DNA of 33,219 nt, from the NCBI GenBank assembly GCA_013388755.1, contig JACAEQ010000038.1:1-33219 (forward strand). Reading direction: 5' to 3'. Positions 5,329 through 33,038 of this stretch are shown here, piece after piece (the first letter of the stretch is position 1; each line of letters begins with the position of its first letter). The notes under the pieces are model-generated. The model was not told where the DNA came from, did no database searches, and worked only from the letters and a program-made list of their open reading frames with translations. The DNA is from Chloroflexota bacterium. GTDB taxonomy: Bacteria; Chloroflexota; Chloroflexia; Chloroflexales; Roseiflexaceae. Position numbers and translations under genes: made by a program.

Positions 5329-5553
5329 CTGCCGCGTTACGAAGTGATTACATTCAGCCATACATGCTAGCCGGATCGTTAAAGCATGGTAGAATGGCAG
5401 TAGCGTCTTGCCCGCGCTGACGTTTACTTTCATGGACGTTGATGGTAGACTTGCGTATGCACTGGTCTGGCCGGCGTCGTCTGGCACCTTGCCGGCTGCA
5501 GTACGCAGGGTAGCCGGTTCAACGATCGTGTTCGAGGCGTCGCTGCCTTAGTA

Positions 5554-5680
5554 CCTATCCGAAAACCCATGGGCATGCTGTCATTGCGAGGAGCACCAGC
5601 GACGAAGCAATCTACCGGCGCGATAGGAGATTGCTTCGCTCGTGCTCGCAATGACTTTGACCATCTGGTTTTCGGATAGG
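5554..5680. repeat. MITE-like element with 13-bp perfect terminal inverted repeats
   Basis: The termini are CCTATCCGAAAAC (5554-5566) and GTTTTCGGATAGG (5668-5680), a perfect inverted pair. The interior is itself palindromic (GTCATTGCGAG near the left end, CTCGCAATGAC near the right) and has no ORF. CTTAG occurs just outside both ends (5547-5551 and 5683-5687), a possible target duplication. A diverged relative lies at 25291-25437. It fills much of the 5329-5770 gap, in which I see no gene. Confidence 0.75.
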
Positions 5681-5770
5681 CTCTTAGGCGACGGGCAGAA
5701 ACCGGGCGTTCCTGTTCGCGCATGTGAACGGTCGCCGTTATGGCTGAGTCACGACAACGGAGGCGTTATC

Positions 5771-7942: not shown

Positions 7943-10423
7943 CTATGCCAATGGTGTACTGGCCGGGTTCAACAGAATGCGATCGCTGCGCTCCTCACCA
8001 TCGTCCGGCTCCTCGACGCAGAGTGCCGCTACCCGGTCCTTCGCAGCCAGGTTCACGATCGTGACCCCTTGCGTGCTGCGGCCAAACATGGAAATGCCGC
8101 CAGCTTCGGTGCGCATCACCATGCCGCCTTCACTGATGAACGTCAACAGTGAGCGATCGCGCACTACGTGCGCCACAGCGACCTCGTCGCCCTGACGGAG
8201 ACGAATAGTAATCACGCCGCTGGTGGCGCGCCCTTTCACCGGATATTCCGCCAGGTCGGTGCGCTTGCCGATGCCGTTGACGGTCACGACAAGCAGCGCG
8301 GCCCCTTCCTGCGCGAGATCCATCGAGACGACGCGATCATCAGCGTCGAGCGCAACGCCGATCACACCCGATGCAGGGCGACCCATCGGGCGTACTTCTT
8401 CCTGACGGAAGCGCACCGTCTGGCCACGCGCGGTGGTGAGCAGGATATCCTCGTGGCCGTGGGTCATCGCCACCCAGCCAAGAAGGTCGCCCTCTTCGAG
8501 ACCGATAGCGATCAGGCCATTGGAACGCACCTGGCTGTATTCTTTGAGAGCCGTGCGCTTGATCTTCCCCCGTACCGTGGCCATAATCAGGTACTCGGCC
8601 TTCTCAAAGTCGGGCACGGCCAGCACCGACGTCACCTGCTCACCCGGCTCCAGCGCAATCAGGTTAACCAGTGGTAATCCTTTGGCCGTGCGGCTGGCGT
8701 CGGGGAGTTCGTGCGCCTTGAGCTGGTAGACCTTGCCGCGGTCGGTGAAGAAGAGGAGATCGTCCATTGTACTGGCGGTAAGGATGTGGCGCACCACATC
8801 CTGCTCGCGGGTTGCTGCACCGCGCACGCCGCGCCCACCACGGCGTTGCGTGCGATACACGTCGGGCGACTGGCGTTTGATGTAGCCGCGATCCGTGAGG
8901 GTGATCAGCACCCTGACGTCTGGAATCAGGTCCTCGTCGCTCACTTCGCCGTTGGCGTCGGGCACGATGCGTGTACGGCGCGGATCGCCATACTTCTCTT
9001 TGAGGTACTTGAGATCCTGTTTGATCAGGTGCAACACCTTACGTGGGTTGGCCAGAATATCCTCGAGCTCGCCGATCAGTTTGATAACATCGCGGTACTC
9101 ATCTTCGATTCGCTGGCGTTCAAGCGCGGCGAGCCGGCCGAGTTGCATGTCGAGAATGGCATTGGCCTGGGCTTCACTCAGCGCAAAGCCGCTCATCAGG
9201 TTGATCCGCGCATTGTCGCGGGATCGTGAGTTACGAATGGTCGTAATGACGGCATCGAGGTTGTCGAGCGCGATCTTGAGCCCTTCGAGAATATGGGCAC
9301 GGGCACGGGCCTTTTCAAGGTCAAACTCCGTCCGGCGGCGAATCACGTCGCGGCGGTGGTCAATATGCTCCTGCAGCATACGTTTGAGCGTCAGCAGGCG
9401 CGGCTGCCGGCCACCTTCAACCAGCGCCAGCATATTGACGCCGAACGTCGTCTGCATCTGGGTATGTTTGTAGAGGGCGTTCAACACCTTCCTGGGCTGC
9501 GCGTCCTGCTTCAGGATGATGACCAGCCGCATACCGGTGCGGTCAGATTCATCGCGCACGTCGCGGATGCCTTCGATTTTGCGTTCGCGCGCCAGTTCGG
9601 CAATGCGCTCCTGCAAGCGCGCCTTGTTGACCTGATAGGGCAATTCGGTAACGACGATATGGAACGCGCCGCGCGCCGCCTCCTCGATATGCGCCCTGGC
9701 GCGCAGCGTGATATGGCCGCGCCCGGTGCTGTAGGCATTCATAATGCCGTCGGTGCCGAGAATCATGCCGGCCGTGGGGAAATCGGGGCCGGGCATGATC
9801 GCGATCAGATCCTCGACCGTCGCATCGGGATTGTCGATCAGGTAGGCGATCGCATCGCACAACTCACCCAGGTTATGGGGCGGGATATTGGTCGCCATAC
9901 CAACGGCAATTCCGGCAGCGCCATTGAGCAGCAGATTGGGCAGGCGCGCCGGGAGAACTGCCGGCTCGCGGAAGGTACCGTCGAAGTTGTCACGGAAGTC
10001 GACGGTATTCTTCTCGATATCGATGAGCATTTCTTCGGCGATCGGCGTGAGCCGCGCCTCGGTGTAGCGCATTGCGGCAGGCGGATCACCGTCAACCGAG
10101 CCAAAGTTCCCCTGCCCATCCACGAGCGGGTAGCGCATGTTCCAGGGCTGCACCAGGCGCGCAAGGGCGTCATACACGGCGCCGTCGCCGTGTGGATGCA
10201 TTTTCCCGAGAATATCGCCGACGATGCGGGCGCACTTTTTGTGTGGCTGATTCGCTCGTATCCCCATGTCCCACATCCCGAAGAGAATACGCGCCTGTAC
10301 CGGCTTGAGCCCGTCGCGCGCATCGGGCAGCGCACGCGACACAATGACGCTCATAGCGTAGTCGAGGTAGGCGCTGCGCATCTCTTCGGTGATGTTGCGT
10401 GGCCGAACGATCCCGATCTCCAT
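7943..10423 (-). CDS. gyrA: DNA gyrase subunit A
   Basis: 826 residues, the usual length for GyrA. Together with GyrB it forms the A2B2 enzyme that introduces negative supercoils. The N-terminal breakage-reunion domain has [21 protein letters not shown], the catalytic Tyr120 in [10 protein letters not shown], and the tower and coiled-coil region. The C-terminal beta-pinwheel carries the GyrA box QRRGGRG, which separates gyrase from topoisomerase IV ParC. The quinolone-resistance region reads [10 protein letters not shown], so the residue matching E. coli Ser83 is Gly81; the Asp87 equivalent is kept. AGGAG lies 7 bases before the ATG. The gene is monocistronic, convergent with the HD-GYP gene, and has a promoter at 10498-10526. 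Calls other than GyrA are unlikely. Confidence 0.97.
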
Positions 10424-10533: not shown

Positions 10534-10547
10534 CGAACTTCTGTTCT
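10534..10547. promoter_or_regulatory. LexA/DinR-type box candidate upstream of gyrA
   Basis: CGAACTTCTGTTCT contains GAAC-N4-GTTC, the dyad bound by the Gram-positive (DinR) class of LexA. It lies 7 bases upstream of the -35 hexamer of the gyrA promoter. Ten of its twelve core bases recur at 16703-16714 in front of imuA. Regulation of gyrA by LexA here is inference. Confidence 0.35.
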
Positions 10548-10649: not shown

Positions 10650-11417
10650 TCAGCGATCCAGGCCGCGTACCGCCACCGGGCCAAAATCAAGATAATCGCA
10701 GGCGGTCAGTTGATAATAGACGCCATCAACCACGCCCTGGGTCGCGGCGGCCCAATCCTCGGGGCGGTGCAGATGGCCGTAGATGCAGGTTGTGACGCCT
10801 GCCGCCGCGATCCGGCGCGCGAATTCGGTCGGGCGGCGTGAGATGAAGGGCGGGAAGTGGATCATGACAATGATCGGTCGCTGCCGGGCAGCCAGTTGTT
10901 GCGCCGCAGCCAGCGCCGCATCGAGGCGTTTCAACTCGCGCTCGAAATATGGCCGGTCGGCGCTCTCCTGGAACCCCGGGGTTTCGGGTGTGTTCCAGCC
11001 GCGCGTGGCGCAGATCACCGCCTCGCCGGCATACAGCGCATCCCCTTCGAGAATGCTGATACCTGGCGGCAGCGAACGGCGCACGCGGTTGGTGCGCTCC
11101 GAGCTCCACCAGTAGTCGTGGTTGCCACGCGAGATGATTTTGCGCCCTGGCAGCGCGTCGATCCATTCCAGGTCAACCAGCGCCTCCTGCAACTTCAGCG
11201 CCCAGGAGGTGTCGCCAGCGAGCAGGACGGTATCGTCGGCGCCGACACGCGCGCGCCAGGCGGCGGCGATACGCTCCGCATGATTCTTCCAGCGATTGCC
11301 GAAGATGTCCATCGGCTTGGGCCGGGCAAACGAAAGATGGAGGTCGGAAATGGTCCAGAGCATGGCGCGCATGGTACCAGACCAGCGCGCGCGTGCCAAA
11401 TACGCGAAGGAGGTCAT
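10650..11417 (-). CDS. Calcineurin-like metallophosphoesterase
   Basis: 255 residues with the complete dinuclear-metal phosphoesterase set in order: ISDLHLS, LLAGDTSW, SRGNHDYWW, a distal MIHFPPF and YGHLHRPE. It is cytoplasmic, with no signal peptide. It begins six bases after the dnaE2 stop on the same strand and is probably the last gene of the mutagenesis operon. A role in processing DNA or nucleotide phosphates is suggested by position only. The start is uncertain: the ATG at 11417 fits the operon spacing, while in-frame ATGs at 11372 and 11363 lie closer to the conserved strand MLWTISDLH. None has a strong ribosome site. Confidence 0.85.
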   Translation of the reverse strand: MTSFAYLARARWSGTMRAMLWTISDLHLSFARPKPMDIFGNRWKNHAERIAAAWRARVGADDTVLLAGDTSWALKLQEALVDLEWIDALPGRKIISRGNHDYWWSSERTNRVRRSLPPGISILEGDALYAGEAVICATRGWNTPETPGFQESADRPYFERELKRLDAALAAAQQLAARQRPIIVMIHFPPFISRRPTEFARRIAAAGVTTCIYGHLHRPEDWAAATQGVVDGVYYQLTACDYLDFGPVAVRGLDR

Positions 11418-11422
11418 GGCTG

Positions 11423-14400
11423 TTATTCCCGCGCCAGCGGTGCCAGGCGCGTGGCAACCAGGTTGACGACACCCGCTTCATGCTGGACGATACCTTCCAC
11501 CTTCAGCAGGTGCCCGCCACGTCGCTCACGATACAGCGGGACAAGGTACGGCCTGACGATGACGTTGATCATGCCGGATTCATCCTCCAGCGTGATGAAA
11601 TGGAACCCTTTCGCCGTTGGCGGCGCCTGATGGACGACGACAACGCCGATCACCCGGGCGCGTTGACCGTCCGGGCAGCGCGCCAGCGCCAGGCTGTCGA
11701 GGTAGCCGCGTGCAGTGAGGGCATCGCGCCAGCGCGCCAGGACATGATCACCGGTCGAGACGCCCAGCAGCGCCATTTGCAACTCCCGGGCTTCGTCGGC
11801 GGTGAGCGCGGGAAGATCGACCGTGCTGCCAGGGATCGGCAGGTCGAGTTCGTCGGCGGCGTAGTGGAATGTCCCGAGTTCCCAGAGCAGCCTGCGCCGC
11901 TCGGTTCCCCATCCGTCGCACGCGCCGGCCAGGATCAGGCGCTCGACCAGGCCTTTCGGCAGGCGGGTGCGGCGGCAGAGATCGGCCAGGCCGGCGAATG
12001 GTCGCGCTGCAATGATTCGCCCGGCGCCGGCCTCACTCAGCCCCGACACATAGTTCAGCCCCAGGCGGACGCTCCCGTCCATCTCCAGCACACAACGCAT
12101 TCCGCTGGCATGGATGTCGAGCGGCGCAACACGGACTTGATGCCGCCGCGCGTCGCGCACCAGCACTGCCGGCGGCCAGAATCCCATCGGCTGGTGGTTC
12201 AGCAGTGCAGTAAGAAATGCCGCCGGGTAGTAGCGCTTCAGCCAGGCAGACTGATAGACGATGACCGCGAAGGCCGCTGCGTGGCTCTTGGGGAAGGAGT
12301 AGCCGCCAAAGGCTTCGAGCTGGCGGAAGACGGCGGCAGCGACCGGCCCGGCGACACCGTTACGTGCGGCGCCGGCCAGAAATGCGTCGCGAAATGGTGC
12401 GATGGCTTCCGGTCCTTTGCCCGCTCCCAGCGCGCGCCGCAGTCGTTCTCCTTCTCCCGGAGTAAAGCCGGCCAGGTCGCGCGCGACTTTGATCACCTGT
12501 TCCTGGAACAGAATGACGCCCAGCGTCTCTTCCAGCGCCGGCTTGAGCCGTGGATGCAGGTAGGCGACCGCCTCCTGGCCGAGCCTGCGGCGCAGGTAGG
12601 GATGTACCATGTCGCCCTGGATGGGACCGGGGCGGATAAGCGAAATGGCAACGACAATATCGGCGAACTGCTGTGGCCTGAGGCGCGGCAACATCTGCGC
12701 CTGCGCACGTGATTCGACCTGGAAGACGCCGATTGTGTCGGCGGCAGCAAGCAACTGGTAGATCGCCGGATCGTCAAATGTCAGCCGGTCGAGGTCGAAC
12801 GGTTCGCCCCGCTGATCACCCACCAGGCGCCCGGCTTCGCTCAATACTGCAAGCATCCGCAGACCAAGCAGGTCAATTTTGACCAGGCCAACATCCTCAA
12901 GCATGGTTTTGTCCCATTGCACGACGGCGCGCCCGGGCATGGCCGCCGGTTCAACCGGCACACGGTCGGCCAGTGGTGCGCGGGTCAGTACCATGCCACC
13001 GTTATGTTGCCCGAGATGGCGCGGCAGATTGTTGAGCTGGCGGCAGAGCGTTGCGGCCAGGGTACGCACCCGGTCGGGGGTATGGTCGCCTTCCAGCAGC
13101 AAGTGTTCAGTCGTAACATCAAGCGCCCTGGCGACATCGCGCAAGGCGGAACGTTCCTGAAACGTGGAAAAGGTGCAGGCCATGGCGGCATGCGCCGGGC
13201 CGTAGGTGCGGAACACATACTGGATCACTTCCTCACGCCGGTCGGAGGCAATATCGAGATCGATATCCGGCAACGCCGGGCGTTCAGCCGAGAGAAAACG
13301 CTCGAACACCAGGTCGTAACGCAGCGGATCGATCGGGCTGATGCCGAGCAGGTAGGCGACCAGCGAATTCGCGGCGCTGCCACGCCCCTGGCAACGAATA
13401 CCCTGTGTCCGCGCGTATCGCACCAGATCCCAGACGATCAGGACGTAGTTGCTCAGATGTGCCCGGGCAATAATGTGCAGCTCATGGGCCAGTTGCCGGC
13501 AGGCACGTTCGGGGTTGCCGGGATAGCGGCAAGGCAACGCCTCGGCGCACAGGCGCGCCAGGTACCCATCGGCGTCATAGCCGGGTGGCGTCGGGAAGCA
13601 TGGCAGGTCCTGCAGGCCATACTGGAGCGTAAAGATACAGCGCCCGGCAATGGCGCGGGTTGCCGCCAGCGCCTCGGGGTAGGCGCCGAACAGCGGCATA
13701 AGGCGCCCGCCACTTTTGAGATAATACTCTGAGTTTGCACGCAATCTCTTGCCGGCATCATCGAGGGATGTGCGGTGGCGGATGGCGGTCAACAGATCGT
13801 GTAGCGGCTGCTGGTCACGGCGCGCGTAGTGGACGTTATTGGTTGCGACGGTATGCAGGCCGAGATGGCGCGCCAGTTCGGCCAGACGCCGCACCAGGAC
13901 GGCATCTCCCGGATGCAGGTGATGCTGGAGTTCAACGAATGTGCGTTCAGGGCCGAACCGTTCACGGAGCCATGTTGCGGCACGAACGGCGCCGGGCATG
14001 TCGAGGCGCCGCAGCGGCGCGGCAACCGGCCCCTGACGGCAGCCGGTCAGGCAGATCAAGCCGCCGGTATGGTCGTCGAGTGCAGCGGGGGGCAGCGCGG
14101 GCCGGCCTCTGGGTGTGTGGTGGCGCGCCATGCTGATCAACCGGCAAAGATTGCGCCAGCCGGTAGCGTTTTCAACCAGGAGCGTCAGGTGTGAGTCATC
14201 GGTGAGTGTGAGTTCGGCGCCGAGGATCGGGTGCATACCACGCGCGCGCGCCGCCGCCACGAACAATGGCGCGCCATAGACCGCATCGTGATCGGTGAGC
14301 GCCAGGGCGTCCATGCCCAGGCCGGCGGCGCGCGCAATGAGTTCGGCAGGTGTGGATGCACCGTCGCACAGGCTGTAGCACGAGTGGCAGTGCAGCTCGA

Positions 14401-14425
14401 TATAATCAGATCCCCGGTCAGTCAT
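11423..14425 (-). CDS. dnaE2: Error-prone DNA polymerase III alpha subunit, DnaE2/ImuC type
   Basis: 1000 residues from the ATG at 14425, shorter than replicative DnaE (about 1160) and in the range of DnaE2. It starts with a PHP domain (ELHCHSCYSLCDGAST, LTDHDAVYGA). The C-family palm follows, with GRGSAANSL and the catalytic acidic motif PDIDLDIASDRREEV, then the fingers and helix-hairpin-helix region. A C-terminal OB fold (VIGVVVVHQAPPTAKGFHFITLE) closes the protein. It is expected to extend primers past lesions together with ImuB and ImuA. The gene overlaps the DUF6504 gene by eight bases, and this overlap decided the start; the open frame extends 12 codons further. It is the fourth gene of a five-gene run. 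Confidence 0.93.
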   Translation of the reverse strand: MTDRGSDYIELHCHSCYSLCDGASTPAELIARAAGLGMDALALTDHDAVYGAPLFVAAARARGMHPILGAELTLTDDSHLTLLVENATGWRNLCRLISMARHHTPRGRPALPPAALDDHTGGLICLTGCRQGPVAAPLRRLDMPGAVRAATWLRERFGPERTFVELQHHLHPGDAVLVRRLAELARHLGLHTVATNNVHYARRDQQPLHDLLTAIRHRTSLDDAGKRLRANSEYYLKSGGRLMPLFGAYPEALAATRAIAGRCIFTLQYGLQDLPCFPTPPGYDADGYLARLCAEALPCRYPGNPERACRQLAHELHIIARAHLSNYVLIVWDLVRYARTQGIRCQGRGSAANSLVAYLLGISPIDPLRYDLVFERFLSAERPALPDIDLDIASDRREEVIQYVFRTYGPAHAAMACTFSTFQERSALRDVARALDVTTEHLLLEGDHTPDRVRTLAATLCRQLNNLPRHLGQHNGGMVLTRAPLADRVPVEPAAMPGRAVVQWDKTMLEDVGLVKIDLLGLRMLAVLSEAGRLVGDQRGEPFDLDRLTFDDPAIYQLLAAADTIGVFQVESRAQAQMLPRLRPQQFADIVVAISLIRPGPIQGDMVHPYLRRRLGQEAVAYLHPRLKPALEETLGVILFQEQVIKVARDLAGFTPGEGERLRRALGAGKGPEAIAPFRDAFLAGAARNGVAGPVAAAVFRQLEAFGGYSFPKSHAAAFAVIVYQSAWLKRYYPAAFLTALLNHQPMGFWPPAVLVRDARRHQVRVAPLDIHASGMRCVLEMDGSVRLGLNYVSGLSEAGAGRIIAARPFAGLADLCRRTRLPKGLVERLILAGACDGWGTERRRLLWELGTFHYAADELDLPIPGSTVDLPALTADEARELQMALLGVSTGDHVLARWRDALTARGYLDSLALARCPDGQRARVIGVVVVHQAPPTAKGFHFITLEDESGMINVIVRPYLVPLYRERRGGHLLKVEGIVQHEAGVVNLVATRLAPLARE

Positions 14426-14672
14426 ACACGCGCTGGAGCCGCCACTGGTCGATTCGTACATCGTGGTAGATCAGCACCAGCAGGCCGCTATGCGTCACAA
14501 GCTGGAAGTATTCGCGCCAGGCACGCCGTTTCCACCACCCTTCGTCCACCCGCCAGCGTTCGATGACCCGATCCACCGTATGGTATCGCCCGCGCCAGGC
14601 AAAAGCCGCCGGTGTGGCCAGCGCATCTACGGTGACTTCGAGTGGAATGCCGTCACTCCAGAAGCGGCTCAT
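14418..14672 (-). CDS. DUF6504-like small protein of the mutagenesis operon
   Basis: 84 residues, rich in Trp and Arg (FWSDGIPLEVTVD, FAWRGRYHTVDRVIERWRVDEGWW, HDVRIDQWRLQRVYD). I match it to DUF6504, a small family that in many bacteria is encoded between imuB and dnaE2. The function is unknown. The compact beta-rich look and operon position suggest a mutasome accessory or DNA-contacting subunit. Its start overlaps the imuB stop by four bases (ATGA), and its stop overlaps the dnaE2 start by eight, so all three are translationally coupled. The ATG at 14672 is chosen over longer in-frame starts because of this overlap. Confidence 0.8.
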   Translation of the reverse strand: MSRFWSDGIPLEVTVDALATPAAFAWRGRYHTVDRVIERWRVDEGWWKRRAWREYFQLVTHSGLLVLIYHDVRIDQWRLQRVYD

Positions 14673-15856
14673 GAGGCCTCCCAGGGTTCCCACGCGATCC
14701 GCTGCTCTAGGCAGCGTGCATCGGGCGCAACCAGGCGAATACGACGCAACTGGCCGGCATGACGCGGCGCCAGGCGGGTGAGCGTTTCCTGGAGGTGTGC
14801 GGCGCACGACGCCGGCGCAGGGAAGAGTTCACCCTGTTCGGCATACACCTGCGCCGGCGCCGCGTCTACCAGAAGCCGGTCAATCGCGCCCTCAGCCAGG
14901 AGCGAGTCGAGCAGGGCGATGAGGATCGCGGCGATCCTGGCAGCGTCGCTCGTCGGCCCGACCAGGGCACGCTGTGCGCGACGTGGTGCGCCGGTATCGC
15001 TGGTCACGGTCAGGGTCAGGCCACGCGCCGCCTGCCCTCCCGCCTGAAGCCGCTGCGCCAGCCGGCCGGCAATCCGGCGGAGTGCGGCGTCGAGTACGGA
15101 GCGATCGATTACACTACTGGAAAAGCGCCAGCCGACGGTGACACGCGTCTCGCGCGATTCGGCCGGCAGTGGCGGTAGATCGAGGCCACCGGCAAGTTGG
15201 TACAGCATACGACCGGCGGCGCCGAACTGGGCCTCAAGTGCGTCGAGGGGAAGCGCCGCGACCGCGCCAATCGTCCGCAGCCCGAACCGGTGGAGGCGTT
15301 CGATGAGCGCCTGGTCGAGTGGTAGCAGGTCGGCGGGCCATGGCGCAAGCCAGGCGGCCTCGCGTCCCGGCGGCACAACGACGACCGCGCCAACTGCTGC
15401 CGTTCGCGCGGCGATATGACCGATGGCCGGATGCGCAGCGAGTGCGAGTACCGGCACGACGCCGAGCGTCTGAAAGATCATGTCGCGGATGCGTTCTCCT
15501 TCGGCGTGCGTCTGCGCCGGCGACAGGCGACCAATATCGGCGGCGACGGCGACATCCGGCGGCGAGGCGAGCAACCAGGTGCGCGGCGCCAGGGTTGCAA
15601 GGGTCGCACGCAGTAGAGCGACCGCGGCAGCAACACGCTCCGGCTCATCATGGCGGATGGCAGCCGGTGGGCAGGAGAGCCGGGCCCGGCGTAGCGTCAG
15701 GCCACGCGCAACCCCCGGCGCATCGGCAGCAACAACGACCGGCTGGCCGGCGCGTCGCCCCAGCACCACAAGCGGCTGATCGGCAAGCGCCGGTTCGGCG
15801 CGCCGGGCGAGGGCAACCGGCAAATTGGGAAGATACACGACAGCCGTCATGATCAT
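14669..15856 (-). CDS. imuB: ImuB, Y-family polymerase-like mutasome subunit without catalytic residues
   Basis: 395 residues with Y-family (DinB/UmuC) architecture: palm and fingers, the helix-hairpin-helix thumb (ALIERLHRFGLRTIGAVAALPLDALEAQFG) and a little-finger domain. The first catalytic Asp motif, usually D-D-FFA, reads VVYLPNLPVAL, and the second, usually SIDE, reads PPDVAVAADIGRL. The metal-binding carboxylates are therefore missing, as is known for ImuB, which acts as a hub linking DnaE2 to the beta clamp. I did not find an unambiguous clamp-binding pentapeptide. The ATG at 15856 overlaps the imuA stop by four bases. Confidence 0.88.
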   Translation of the reverse strand: MIMTAVVYLPNLPVALARRAEPALADQPLVVLGRRAGQPVVVAADAPGVARGLTLRRARLSCPPAAIRHDEPERVAAAVALLRATLATLAPRTWLLASPPDVAVAADIGRLSPAQTHAEGERIRDMIFQTLGVVPVLALAAHPAIGHIAARTAAVGAVVVVPPGREAAWLAPWPADLLPLDQALIERLHRFGLRTIGAVAALPLDALEAQFGAAGRMLYQLAGGLDLPPLPAESRETRVTVGWRFSSSVIDRSVLDAALRRIAGRLAQRLQAGGQAARGLTLTVTSDTGAPRRAQRALVGPTSDAARIAAILIALLDSLLAEGAIDRLLVDAAPAQVYAEQGELFPAPASCAAHLQETLTRLAPRHAGQLRRIRLVAPDARCLEQRIAWEPWEAS

Positions 15857-16644
15857 AGGGCATCCCCGTCGCGCGGAAAGGTGATTGGCAGTTCGATGTG
15901 CGCGCCATCGGCGGCGCCGCGTCGTTTGAGCACGGTGATCCGGGCCCGGCAGGCAACATCATCACCGGGAGCGATGTGCCATGCGCTTCGAGCGACATGC
16001 AGCCGGAGGGTCGCGGCGTGCGCCAGCGGCGATCCTGGCCCGGCGAGGTTTTCCGCGACTGCGGTGGGATAGGGCAGAAACGTCAGCGCGACAAGGGCCG
16101 TCGGCGCCCGGGCGAGAACCGGAGCAAGGCGGCGCAGCGCCGTAGTGAGCAGGGGTCGCCCGCCAGGCGCGACCGGTAGCCATGCCAGCGAGTCAATCAC
16201 CAGCATGCCCAGACCTCCGCTGGCGACGAGCGCCTCGACCAGTTCAAGGGCGTCAGCGGCGCCTGTGGGGCGCGCGAGGAGCAGATCGTGGAGCACGACG
16301 CCGCATGCGGCGGCATAGAGGGCGTCGAACACACCGCTCAGGTCAATGCAGGCGCCAGGCTCACCATGTGCCTGTGTCTGCGCCAGGGCCGTCAGCGCAA
16401 TCGTTGTCATGCCTGATGTTGGCGCGCCAAGGAGTTCGGTGATCGCGCCACGCGGGAGACCACCTTCAAGGAGGGTATCGAGGGCCGCGATATGTGTCGG
16501 GAGAAGCGCGCGTTCAGTGTGGCCAGCCACGCCCCGGCGAATCGCGTGCGTCCCCCAGCGGCGCTGGATGGCGGCGATCAGCCGATTGATCGCAGGCGCA
16601 TATGCAGATCGCCCATGGGCGACGTCCGGGTCGCGTGCTGACAC
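15853..16644 (-). CDS. imuA: ImuA, RecA-like mutasome protein
   Basis: 263 residues with a RecA/SulA-like core. PTHIAALDTLLEGGLPRGAI is the usual lead-in, followed by the Walker A region at 73-81 (GAPTSGMTT) and a Walker B-like strand (LGMLVIDSLAW). Position 79 of the P-loop is Met in place of Lys, so ATP binding may be weak or absent. ImuA proteins bind ImuB and help recruit the error-prone polymerase. It is the first gene of the operon, with a GTG start at 16644, and its ribosome site (GGTGA) lies within the dyad 16647-16733. Family assignment rests on the RecA-like core plus immediate coupling to imuB. Confidence 0.85.
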   Translation of the reverse strand: MSARDPDVAHGRSAYAPAINRLIAAIQRRWGTHAIRRGVAGHTERALLPTHIAALDTLLEGGLPRGAITELLGAPTSGMTTIALTALAQTQAHGEPGACIDLSGVFDALYAAACGVVLHDLLLARPTGAADALELVEALVASGGLGMLVIDSLAWLPVAPGGRPLLTTALRRLAPVLARAPTALVALTFLPYPTAVAENLAGPGSPLAHAATLRLHVARSAWHIAPGDDVACRARITVLKRRGAADGAHIELPITFPRDGDAL

Positions 16645-16646
16645 TG

Positions 16647-16733
16647 GTTGTCACCATTCCAGAAAACGAAACACACGTGCGATTGCATCCTAACGAACAA
16701 GTGTGCTTCTGTTCATGACAGAATGGTGACAAC
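16647..16733. promoter_or_regulatory. Large nested dyad at the head of the imuA operon
   Basis: The outer arms GTTGTCACCATTC (16647-16659) and GAATGGTGACAAC (16721-16733) are perfect 13-bp inverted repeats. Inner arms GAAACACACGTG (16668-16679) and CAAGTGTGCTTC (16698-16709) match with two differences. The left outer arm covers the imuA ribosome site. A CTGT-TCATG-ACAG near-palindrome lies at 16709-16721. The layout suits a divergent operator, or a regulator binding two inverted sites, but only imuA is a convincing gene beside it. Confidence 0.6.
16687..16715 (-). promoter_or_regulatory. Candidate imuA promoter with LexA-like overlap
   Basis: On minus, TGAACA (16715-16710) and TAGGAT (16692-16687) are separated by 17 bases, each with two differences from consensus. 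GTGCTTCTGTTC (16703-16714), which matches 10 of 12 bases of the gyrA-upstream GAAC-N4-GTTC site, covers the -35 hexamer. A repressor bound there would block polymerase. Confidence 0.35.
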
Positions 16734-16800
16734 TACTGGCGGTATGCGCGCTCACCAGGCACAGGTCCGCGGCTTCGTTCGACCACACACCCGCGCCATG

Positions 16801-17155
16801 GATCCTCGTCCCGGCACGGCGCGGGCGGGTGATGGGGGCGTGGTCGACCCTCGTCCGGGCGCGGCGCGGGCGGGTGATGGGGGCGTGGTGGTACATTGGA
16901 TGGGATGGGATGCGATGGGATGCGATGGGATGGGATGCGATGGGATGCGATGGGATGCGATGCGATGGGATGCGATGCGATGGGATGGGGTGGGGTGGGA
17001 TGGGATTGTAGGGACGCAGCGCGCTGCGTCCCTACAACCCCCGCCATCCGCCATCCCGCCCGGCCGCCGCGCCGCATCCCCCGCCATCCGCCATCCCGCC
17101 CGGCCGCCGCGCCGATATCCTCCGCCATCCCGCCCGGCCGCCGCGCCGCGCACCG
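16801..17155. repeat. Composite repeat element, copy 1
   Basis: Four parts in order. Part one is two 45-bp units (16801-16845, 16846-16890) sharing GCGGGCGGGTGATGGGGGCG. Part two is about 21 tandem pentamers of GATGG/GATGC (16899-17005). Part three is a perfect 32-bp palindrome with no loop (17006-17037, left half TTGTAGGGACGCAGCG). Part four is nearly three units of about 40 bp rich in CCGCCATCC and GGCCGCCGCGCCG (17038-17155). The same order recurs at 23142-23455. Long frames are open through it only because the units are multiples of three or five without stops; I do not call a protein. It fills most of the 16734-17459 gap. Confidence 0.85.
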
Positions 17156-17314
17156 GCCTTCGTGGAGAAACGCAGGTCGTCGGTGATTACTCATGGTCAC
17201 CTCCCAATACTACCCAAGGTAGTGTAAAGAGCCACGCATAGGCGCGCCCAGGCGCTTCAATCTGGGCGTCATTGAAGACATGGCGGGGCGAATCCGCTAC
17301 CGTCATAATTCCGT

Positions 17315-17341
17315 TTGACAGGCGCAAAACAGGCGTATAAT
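17315..17341 (+). promoter_or_regulatory. Consensus-hexamer promoter upstream of mntA-hepT
   Basis: TTGACA (17315-17320) and TATAAT (17336-17341) are both perfect consensus hexamers, but only 15 bases separate them. The short spacer would weaken constitutive activity; spacers like this are sometimes used by DNA-twisting activators. It lies 119 bases before the mntA start. Confidence 0.4.
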
Positions 17342-17359
17342 CCGTGAATGCAGCATCAG

Positions 17360-17388
17360 TTGCTGCGGAACGATAGCTCCGCTACAAT
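17360..17388 (+). promoter_or_regulatory. Second promoter candidate for mntA-hepT
   Basis: TTGCTG (17360-17365) and TACAAT (17383-17388) are separated by 17 bases, 72 bases before the ATG at 17460. The spacing is ideal, so this may be the main promoter. Confidence 0.45.
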
Positions 17389-17459
17389 AGAATGTGAGTC
17401 GGCATGTGCGTAGCGGATCAGACAGTGACTGGTATCGCGCAAGTCATGGAGCAGAAGCG

Positions 17460-17783
17460 ATGACGACAGTTGACAATGAGCAGGTACACAAACAGCCGGT
17501 GACGCGATTGCTGTTGCGACTGCGCGAACGGCGCGCTGATCTGGTCAAGCGCTATCACATCCATGAATTGGGCGTATTTGGTTCCTATGTGCGGAATGAG
17601 CAGCGTCCCGATAGCGATATCGATCTGCTGGTGTCGTTCACCCAGACTCCCAGCCTGCTGACATTGGTGCAACTTGAGGATGAATTAAGCGAACTGCTGG
17701 GTGTCAGGGTTGACCTGGCGGTCAAAAGCGCGCTTCGCCCCCGTATTGCCGAGCATGTGCTGCATGAGGTCGTGCCAGTATGA
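17460..17783 (+). CDS. mntA: MntA-type nucleotidyltransferase antitoxin
   Basis: 107 residues of the minimal nucleotidyltransferase (MNT) family. The signature is GS at 41-42 followed after ten residues by Asp53-x-Asp55 (GSYVRNEQRPDSDID), with a further Asp in RVDLAV. In known pairs, MntA transfers AMP groups to a tyrosine of HepT and so silences it. GGAG lies 8 bases before the ATG at 17460; the open frame begins at 17394 but has no such site. The stop overlaps the hepT start by four bases (ATGA), the usual arrangement of this type VII toxin-antitoxin pair. Confidence 0.92.
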   Translation: MTTVDNEQVHKQPVTRLLLRLRERRADLVKRYHIHELGVFGSYVRNEQRPDSDIDLLVSFTQTPSLLTLVQLEDELSELLGVRVDLAVKSALRPRIAEHVLHEVVPV

Positions 17784-18148
17784 GCGCGCCTCGCGGATAC
17801 CTTGACTATCTCGACGACATCGCGACCGCGCTTGATGCTGTCGCGAGCTTTCTTCAGGGTCTTGATCTGGATGGTTTTCGCAGTGACATCAAGACCGTCT
17901 ATGCAGTCACCCGGGCGCTGGAAATAGCCGGCGAGTCAGTGAAACGATTGCCGGAAGATGTGCGTGCCCGTCATCCAGGCATTCCCTGGCGGTTAATGGC
18001 AGGGATGCGCGATCGCCTCATTCACGGGTATGATACCGTTGATGTTGCTATCCTCTGGCAAACCGCGACACAGGATGTAGCTGCTCTTCGTGATCCGCTC
18101 GCCGAAGTCATTCGCCAGGAACGAATAGCTGCTGGTGAAAGCGCCTAG
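17780..18148 (+). CDS. hepT: HepT-like HEPN ribonuclease toxin (DUF86)
   Basis: 122 residues, all-helical HEPN fold. The catalytic RX4HXY motif is intact: Arg77, His82 and Tyr84 in RDRLIHGY. Arg and His form the RNase site, and the Tyr is the residue AMPylated by MntA. It probably cleaves RNA (tRNA in characterised relatives) when released. It is coupled to mntA by ATGA. Both partners look intact, so the module could be active. It lies in a repeat-rich, rearranged stretch, which fits transfer or plasticity. Confidence 0.92.
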   Translation: MSAPRGYLDYLDDIATALDAVASFLQGLDLDGFRSDIKTVYAVTRALEIAGESVKRLPEDVRARHPGIPWRLMAGMRDRLIHGYDTVDVAILWQTATQDVAALRDPLAEVIRQERIAAGESA

Positions 18149-23141: not shown

Positions 23142-23455
23142 GGTATGCGTCGCCACGCGGCGCATGCCGGTGATGCGTGCGTGGTCGGCCCACGTCGCCA
23201 CGCGGCGCGGGCGCGTGATGGGGGCGTGGTGGTACATTGGATGGGATGCGATGGGATGGGATGCGATGGGATGCGATGGGATTGTAGGGACGCAGCGCGC
23301 TGCGTCCCTACAACCCCCGCCATCCGCCATCCCACCTGGCCGCCGCGCCGATATCCCCCGCCATCCGCCATCCCCCCGGCCGCCGCGCCCCGCCACATCC
23401 CCCCGCCATCCGCCATCCCGCCCGGCCGCCGCGCCGCGCCACATCCCCCCGCCAT
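23142..23455. repeat. Composite repeat element, copy 2
   Basis: Same order as copy 1. Two diverged 45-bp units (23142-23186, 23187-23231) are followed by the shared junction GGTACATTGG and about 8 GATGG/GATGC pentamers (23240-23281). The identical 32-bp palindrome comes next (23282-23313), then three to four units of about 40 bp rich in CCGCCATCC and GGCCGCCGCGCC (23314-23455). It starts within three bases of the end of the regulator's C-terminal frame. Pentamer number differs strongly between copies (about 21 versus 8), as expected of slippage. Confidence 0.85.
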
Positions 23456-32966: not shown

Positions 32967-33038
32967 AGCCGATGGTCGGATTCGAACCGACGACCTGCTG
33001 TTTACGAAACAGCTGCTCTACCGCTGAGCTACACCGGC
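32967..33038 (-). tRNA. tRNA-Thr, anticodon CGT
   Basis: 72 nt on minus. The acceptor arm GCCGGTG pairs with CATCGGC (one G-T). The D arm is AGCTCAGCGGTAGAGC. The anticodon stem GCTGT/ACAGC holds loop TTCGTAA, so anticodon CGT reads ACG. The T arm has GGTTCGAATCC. The discriminator is T and CCA is encoded (32966-32964). Confidence 0.95.

Follow-up and report, generated by a model that had tools for sequence, protein, structure and literature searches.

What do the parts of a nested inverted repeat do when it lies directly before a mutagenesis operon and one of its arms covers the ribosome site of the first gene? The question is raised by a locus in the window, by which we mean the whole stretch of 33,219 nucleotides that was analysed and that corresponds to contig C126 of a 5.08-Mb Chloroflexales genome (G000) in 145 contigs. 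The genes of the locus, its promoter and the outer arms of the repeat were compared with those of related genomes, and the evidence on each is given in this order.

The mutagenesis cassette and the dyad

Three genes lie in the order of the imuA-imuB-dnaE2 cassette on the minus strand, and it is from this order and strand that we take them to be an operon. The imuA-like gene (15853-16644, GTG start at 16644), coding for a RecA-fold accessory protein, matched Pfam RecA with 91 bits, and its product remained below the cut-offs of the NCBIfam models for RecA (97.6 bits, cut-off 325) and ImuA (43.4 bits, cut-off 150). Since neither model reached its cut-off and the genome contains a second, separate RecA-like gene (on contig C42), the naming as ImuA depends on gene order and on relatives: the protein is 37-39% identical to the products of imuA-like genes of genomes G002, G008 and G049. 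The imuB-like gene (14669-15856), encoding a relative of Y-family polymerases, exceeded the cut-off of Pfam IMS_C with 39.6 bits, matched NCBIfam models only below their cut-offs and has its best relative in G002 (36%). The third gene, dnaE2 (11423-14461), codes for an error-prone DNA polymerase (NCBIfam NF004225, 1061 bits, cut-off 939). A lexA gene is present in the same genome, as a single PF01726 match of 79 bits.

Two further frames on the minus strand may be members of the operon: a small ORF between imuB and dnaE2 (14418-14807), with a C-terminal part that, judged by eye, has a counterpart at this position in G002, and a metallophosphoesterase-like gene right after dnaE2 (10650-11417), named by eye from a weak match below cut-off. 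In genome G077, imuA is split by an apparent transposase gene (loci L124 and L113). A search of the window with Rfam at gathering scores returned a tRNA at 32967-33038 and nothing else.

The outer arms of the dyad lie where the first-pass annotation had placed them: GTTGTCACCATTC (16647-16659) is the exact reverse complement of GAATGGTGACAAC (16721-16733) over 13 bp, and the pair is the first listed of 24 inverted repeats in the window. Around these perfect cores the arms lengthen to 28 nt with 79% complementarity, the left one covering 16632-16659 and the right one 16721-16748, and 74 bp, or about seven helical turns, separate their centres. The left arm spans the imuA ribosome site and the first codons; the Shine-Dalgarno sequence GGTGA (16651-16655, minus strand), 6 nt before the GTG start, is inside the perfect core, as had also been claimed. 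With gaps allowed, pairing continues inward to 16679 and 16698 and reaches a score of 19, the two halves being alignable over 49/51 nt with small gaps. As a DNA strand, the 117-nt quasi-palindrome (16632-16748) folds better than shuffled sequences (z -3.76, with 1 of 200 as good).

Probable LexA boxes and the layout of the imuA promoter

The top LexA-type site of the whole window falls between the outer arms. This box 1 (CGAAC-AAGT-GTGCT, 16694-16707, plus strand) scored 19.9 bits with a matrix of 28 boxes that includes the box-1 14-mer itself (from recA) as well as the imuA boxes of G002, G008 and G049; for random 150-nt stretches (n = 500) the 95% point was 7.1 and the 99% point 11.8. Letter for letter, box 1 is CGAACAAGTGTGCT, the recA-promoter box in six genomes, all of genus g11. 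Of the regions upstream of recA in Chloroflexales (28, from 27 RecA loci and that of the genome studied here), 20 contain the exact pattern GAACnnnnGTKC, the genome's own among them. TATA comes immediately after it in 19, and its second half is GTGC, not GTTC, likewise in 19; the 8 regions lacking the pattern are all of family f4. At imuA, the boxes of the window, G049, G060, G073 and G077 have the GTGC second half too. Genome-wide, the pattern occurs 216 times per strand, against 111 and 102 for the reversed control.

Upstream of lexA, the exact box was absent from 24 of 30 loci, taken from 75 genomes with a match, the genome's own lexA among them, and present in 6. Near-boxes are common there, two of the best three sites lying 27-31 bp apart in 11 of the 17 regions displayed; some of these pairs have a weak second box (0.8-2.6 bits), and the genome's own lexA is without this spacing. 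For the class, 30 Y-family polymerase loci (own and 29) were taken from 79 genomes with a match; up to 1500 nt upstream of them, box-like sites were present at 25 of the 29 and absent at 4. Some of these loci (L048 and L053) align as DinB and not as ImuB, so that the counts apply to Y-family polymerase loci generally. The second-best site of the window is another strong LexA-type box, CGAACTTCTGTTCT at 10534-10547 (17.5 bits), which precedes gyrA (7943-10423, minus strand) by about 110 nt and, by eye, lies before the gyrA promoter, not over it.

At a conserved distance from box 1 lies the probable -10 element TAGGAT (16687-16692, minus strand); the letters at equal distance from the LexA box are TAGGAT in G060 and G077 and TACCAT in G049 and G073. 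On the upstream side, 8 nt before the box, stands CTGTCAT (16715-16721, minus strand), of which 6-7 of 7 letters are common to the four other imuA promoters, each time 8 nt from the LexA box. This is the proximal member of a direct repeat, whose distal member TTGTCA (16727-16732, minus strand) lies 11 bp upstream of it, within the right outer arm. The distal member reads CTGTCA in G060 and G077 and ATGTAA in G049 and G073, and the distal block agrees with the window at 5/7 letters in G060, 6/7 in G077 and 4/7 in both G049 and G073. Read toward imuA, the order is TTGTCACCATTCTGTCAT, N8, the LexA box (in reverse sense GCACACTTGTTC), N2 and TAGGAT, and the pattern YTGTCAT-N8-box-N2-TAnnAT precedes imuA with identical spacing in the window, G049, G073, G060 and G077. 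The flanking 40-nt blocks share 8-18 of 40 positions with the window in the other four carriers. Three of these (G077, G049 and G073) were reached via proteins; since G060 was reached by the pattern, its ORF being ImuA by eye, and since G049 and G073 are of one genus, the motif has been seen independently in few lineages.

In 400 genomes of the phylum, a sample with the carriers G000 and G049 but not the other three (G060, G073 and G077), the full pattern with the -10 gave 2 matches, both at imuA (G000 and G049), and the reversed control gave 0. Without the -10, TGTCAT-N8-box matched 8 times in 82 genomes, 5 of the 8 at imuA promoters; as the reversed control also matched 8 times, it is location that argues for this shorter pattern. 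The repeat by itself, as YTGTCA-N5-YTGTCAY, is rare: it was counted 2 times in the genome studied here, 2 in G060, 3 in G077, 1 in G002 and 0 in G049 and G073, with 0 for the reversed control in all six. In G002 and G008, which are of the window's family, imuA has a TTGAC...TATATCAT-type promoter with the LexA box GAACnnnnGTTC and no TGTCA repeat there.

A weak box 2 (GCAC-GTGT-GTTT, 16669-16680, minus strand) is located just past the -10; alone it scores 4.35 bits at best, below the 95% point of the random stretches. The best site up to 28 nt past the -10 has 1 mismatch in the window, 0 in G060, 1 in G077, 2 in G049 and 1 in G073. With no more than 1 mismatch allowed, that interval contains a box-like site at 4 of 5 imuA promoters versus 153 of 4000 random stretches, for a pattern that had been selected after inspecting G060. 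The inner dyad probably consists of two LexA boxes that flank the imuA -10.

From this layout, the imuA transcript would start near 16680 and hold the left arm only. The first-pass annotation had proposed control of the cassette at both transcription and translation. The transcriptional part is borne out by the LexA box and by a promoter layout that comparison finds conserved. The translational part found no support, since one arm alone would be in the transcript and an 85-nt piece from 16684 folds like shuffled sequences (z 0.21).

Conservation, origin and possible roles of the outer arms

Sixty relatives were compared, none of the window's genus. The arm 13-mer is absent from all six other imuA promoters (G060, G077, G049, G073, G002 and G008), where the best matches have 8-10 of 13 letters. 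The dyad scores of these promoters are 8-15, against 19 here, the 15 of G008 being above the simulated 99% point of 14. An alignment of ImuA against the genome contigs gave at least three loci among the matches listed (L081, L082 and the distant L083), an ImuB query alone brought no closer relative for the arms from these contigs, and a search of viral contigs returned no match. Conservation of the arms together with imuA regulation was the check that had been named for the dyad, and it went against the arms, because the regulation was kept and the arms were gone in 6/6; this holds at the distances sampled, all beyond the genus. In the 5.08-Mb genome itself, the exact 13-mer occurs at the two arm positions only. 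With one mismatch there are 12 more positions, as compared to 1 in all for the reversed control and to second-order Markov expectations of 5.4 and, for the reversed control, 2.6. Since all 12 copies fall within long open frames (633-2247 nt), the set does not resemble a regulon, and the 13-mer was rejected as a regulon motif.

Because the arms are absent at the six promoters and the LexA box is kept in G002 and G008, the older half of the dyad would be the right one, with repeat, box and -10; the left half would have arisen later as an inverted copy, or partly by coincidence. The gapped alignment of the halves over 49/51 nt fits the inverted duplication of operator and leader that had been suggested, and leaves it unproved. 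The outer arms seem to be a lineage-specific inverted duplication or a coincidence, with no demonstrated role.

A match of the outer arms by chance, seeded by TGTCACC, is possible but rather doubtful. TCACC in the arm is the complement of GGTGA in the ribosome site, so the arm match may partly be a coincidence. A dyad scoring at least 19 was present in 13 of 60 simulated 33-kb windows (first-order Markov), and three more perfect arm pairs of at least 13 bp exist elsewhere in the window, which, with gaps allowed, also holds two stronger dyads and one equal to it (inner ends near 5613, 17019 and 23295). However, none of 3000 simulated 160-nt Markov sequences reached even 17, and the similarity spans about 50 nt with small gaps. 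Of the overlapping real 160-nt tiles of the genome, 7 of 904 reached 17, the dyad itself being one of the 7. The dyad is unremarkable as a structure somewhere in 33 kb and unusual for one given promoter, this promoter having been picked after the dyad was seen. Since such a score is rare for a single promoter, coincidence explains the dyad poorly.

Other repeats were observed in the window. Blocks 16804-17151 and 23158-23439 have matching pieces about 81-88% alike, each with GATGG/GATGC repeats, and carry an identical 40-nt palindrome (17002-17041 and 23278-23317), the core of which was found nowhere else in the genome with up to 2 mismatches allowed. A 145-nt self-complementary stretch (5545-5689, about 73%) with TCATTGCGAGGAGC...GAAGCAATCT looks like a dispersed intergenic hairpin repeat.

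As to roles of the arms, it is unlikely that they form an RNA hairpin masking the imuA ribosome site in transcripts begun upstream of 16733, which would confine translation to transcripts from the LexA-controlled start and insulate the cassette from read-through. The 151-nt strand does fold at -55.7 kcal/mol (z -2.83, with 2 of 200 shuffles as good) and has GGTGA in the stem. However, a transcript starting near 16680 would exclude the right arm, so a hairpin that blocks translation would need read-through from upstream, and the genes nearest upstream of imuA (17394-18148) face the opposite direction; stem and arms are absent, besides, at 6/6 other imuA promoters. When 16500-17400 was scanned strictly for sigma-70 promoters, none came up, neither upstream nor the one proposed here for imuA; the scan weighs little against the hairpin since it missed the latter as well. 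The arms had further been read outward, as ATG-GTG-ACA-AC, as two beginnings of the same leader. These letters are literally present on both sides, but a leader role finds no support: the ATG of the left arm (16657) and imuA are in different frames, and that of the right arm opens a low-complexity frame only, so neither resembles a leader peptide, and the absence of the arms at the six promoters tells against the idea too. Because of an in-frame TGA at 16651-16653, there is no imuA start further upstream.

We consider it more improbable still that the arms are paired sites of a second regulator, one that would connect the promoter with the leader and, by looping, aid LexA repression. They are perfectly identical in inverted sense over 13 bp and lie on both sides of the LexA boxes, and one-mismatch copies are somewhat commoner than expected (12 versus 5.4), but the exact 13-mer is found nowhere else in the genome, its one-mismatch copies all lie within open frames, and it is not kept at the other imuA promoters. 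Least probable of all, and hardly credible, is that the palindrome is the remnant of a MITE-like mobile hairpin element that brought the operator to imuA: the fold of the 117-nt strand and the further palindromes nearby, one of them in two copies, speak for it, but other genera keep the promoter half at imuA, and a search of the genome with 16600-16780 matched itself alone, and on this single copy a mobile element was rejected.

A probable LexA operator with a candidate second input

We give a probability of roughly 70% to the reading that the nested dyad is mostly the LexA operator and promoter of imuA, with the TGTCA repeat as a second input and with arms that arose by duplication or coincidence. 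LexA would bind box 1, between the tandem TGTCA repeat and TAGGAT, and probably also the weaker box 2 just downstream of the -10; DNA damage would strip LexA from the DNA, and transcription would then proceed from near 16680. TTGTCA and CTGTCAT would form a conserved second element in the position of an activator, and a putative activator on this tandem repeat would probably compensate for the poor -35. The right outer arm overlaps the tandem repeat and the left arm the ribosome site.

One report (PMC3323433) describes the imuA-imuB-dnaE2 cassette as persistently LexA-regulated whenever present. The locus is like this system in gene order, in the presence of a genomic lexA and in the LexA box at the promoter; it differs in the asymmetric GAACnnnnGTGC form of the box, of which probably two flank the -10, and in the conserved TGTCA direct repeat upstream. 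The Gram-positive type of LexA box has the consensus GAACnnnnGTTC. Half-site and spacing are shared with it, and G002 and G008 have the symmetric form at imuA, whereas the second half in the window is GTGC instead of GTTC.

Two known systems resemble the repeat. A Pho box consists of two YTGTCAY repeats with an 11-bp period, and TTGTCACCATTCTGTCAT (16715-16732; TTGTCAC-N4-CTGTCAT) fits two such motifs at 11 bp; the repeat in the window is about one turn further from the -10 than in PhoB promoters. A Pho regulon seems less likely, since the five other exact matches of the repeat (one each in G000, G002 and G060 and two in G077) have, by eye, other or unclear neighbours and no obvious phosphate genes next to them. 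For the PafBC, RecA-independent damage promoters of M. tuberculosis, PMC8151990 gives TGTCGG, TGTCAG or TGTCAC, N10 and TA-N3-T. In the imuA promoter, too, TGTCA precedes a TAnnnT -10 and the gene is a damage gene, but 22 nt separate TGTCAT from the -10 and the motif is present twice, with an 11-bp period. With TGTCAT-N22-TAnnAT in 5/5 aligned promoters, a PafBC-type promoter was rejected on its spacing.

The comparison outlines a Chloroflexales-type LexA operator (GAACnnnnGTGC, probably as two boxes around the -10) at the mutagenesis cassette. Among the papers listed, none dealt, by title or abstract opening, with a Chloroflexales LexA operator at imuA, and the motif may already be in print. 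Only tentatively do we propose that the mutagenesis operon of Chloroflexales combines LexA repression with an activator, PhoB/OmpR-like in form, on the 11-bp TGTCA direct repeat. If this two-input reading is true, induced mutagenesis would need DNA damage and a second signal. An activator bound to the repeat would tie the mutation rate of the group to that second signal besides DNA damage, an idea that the motif makes testable.
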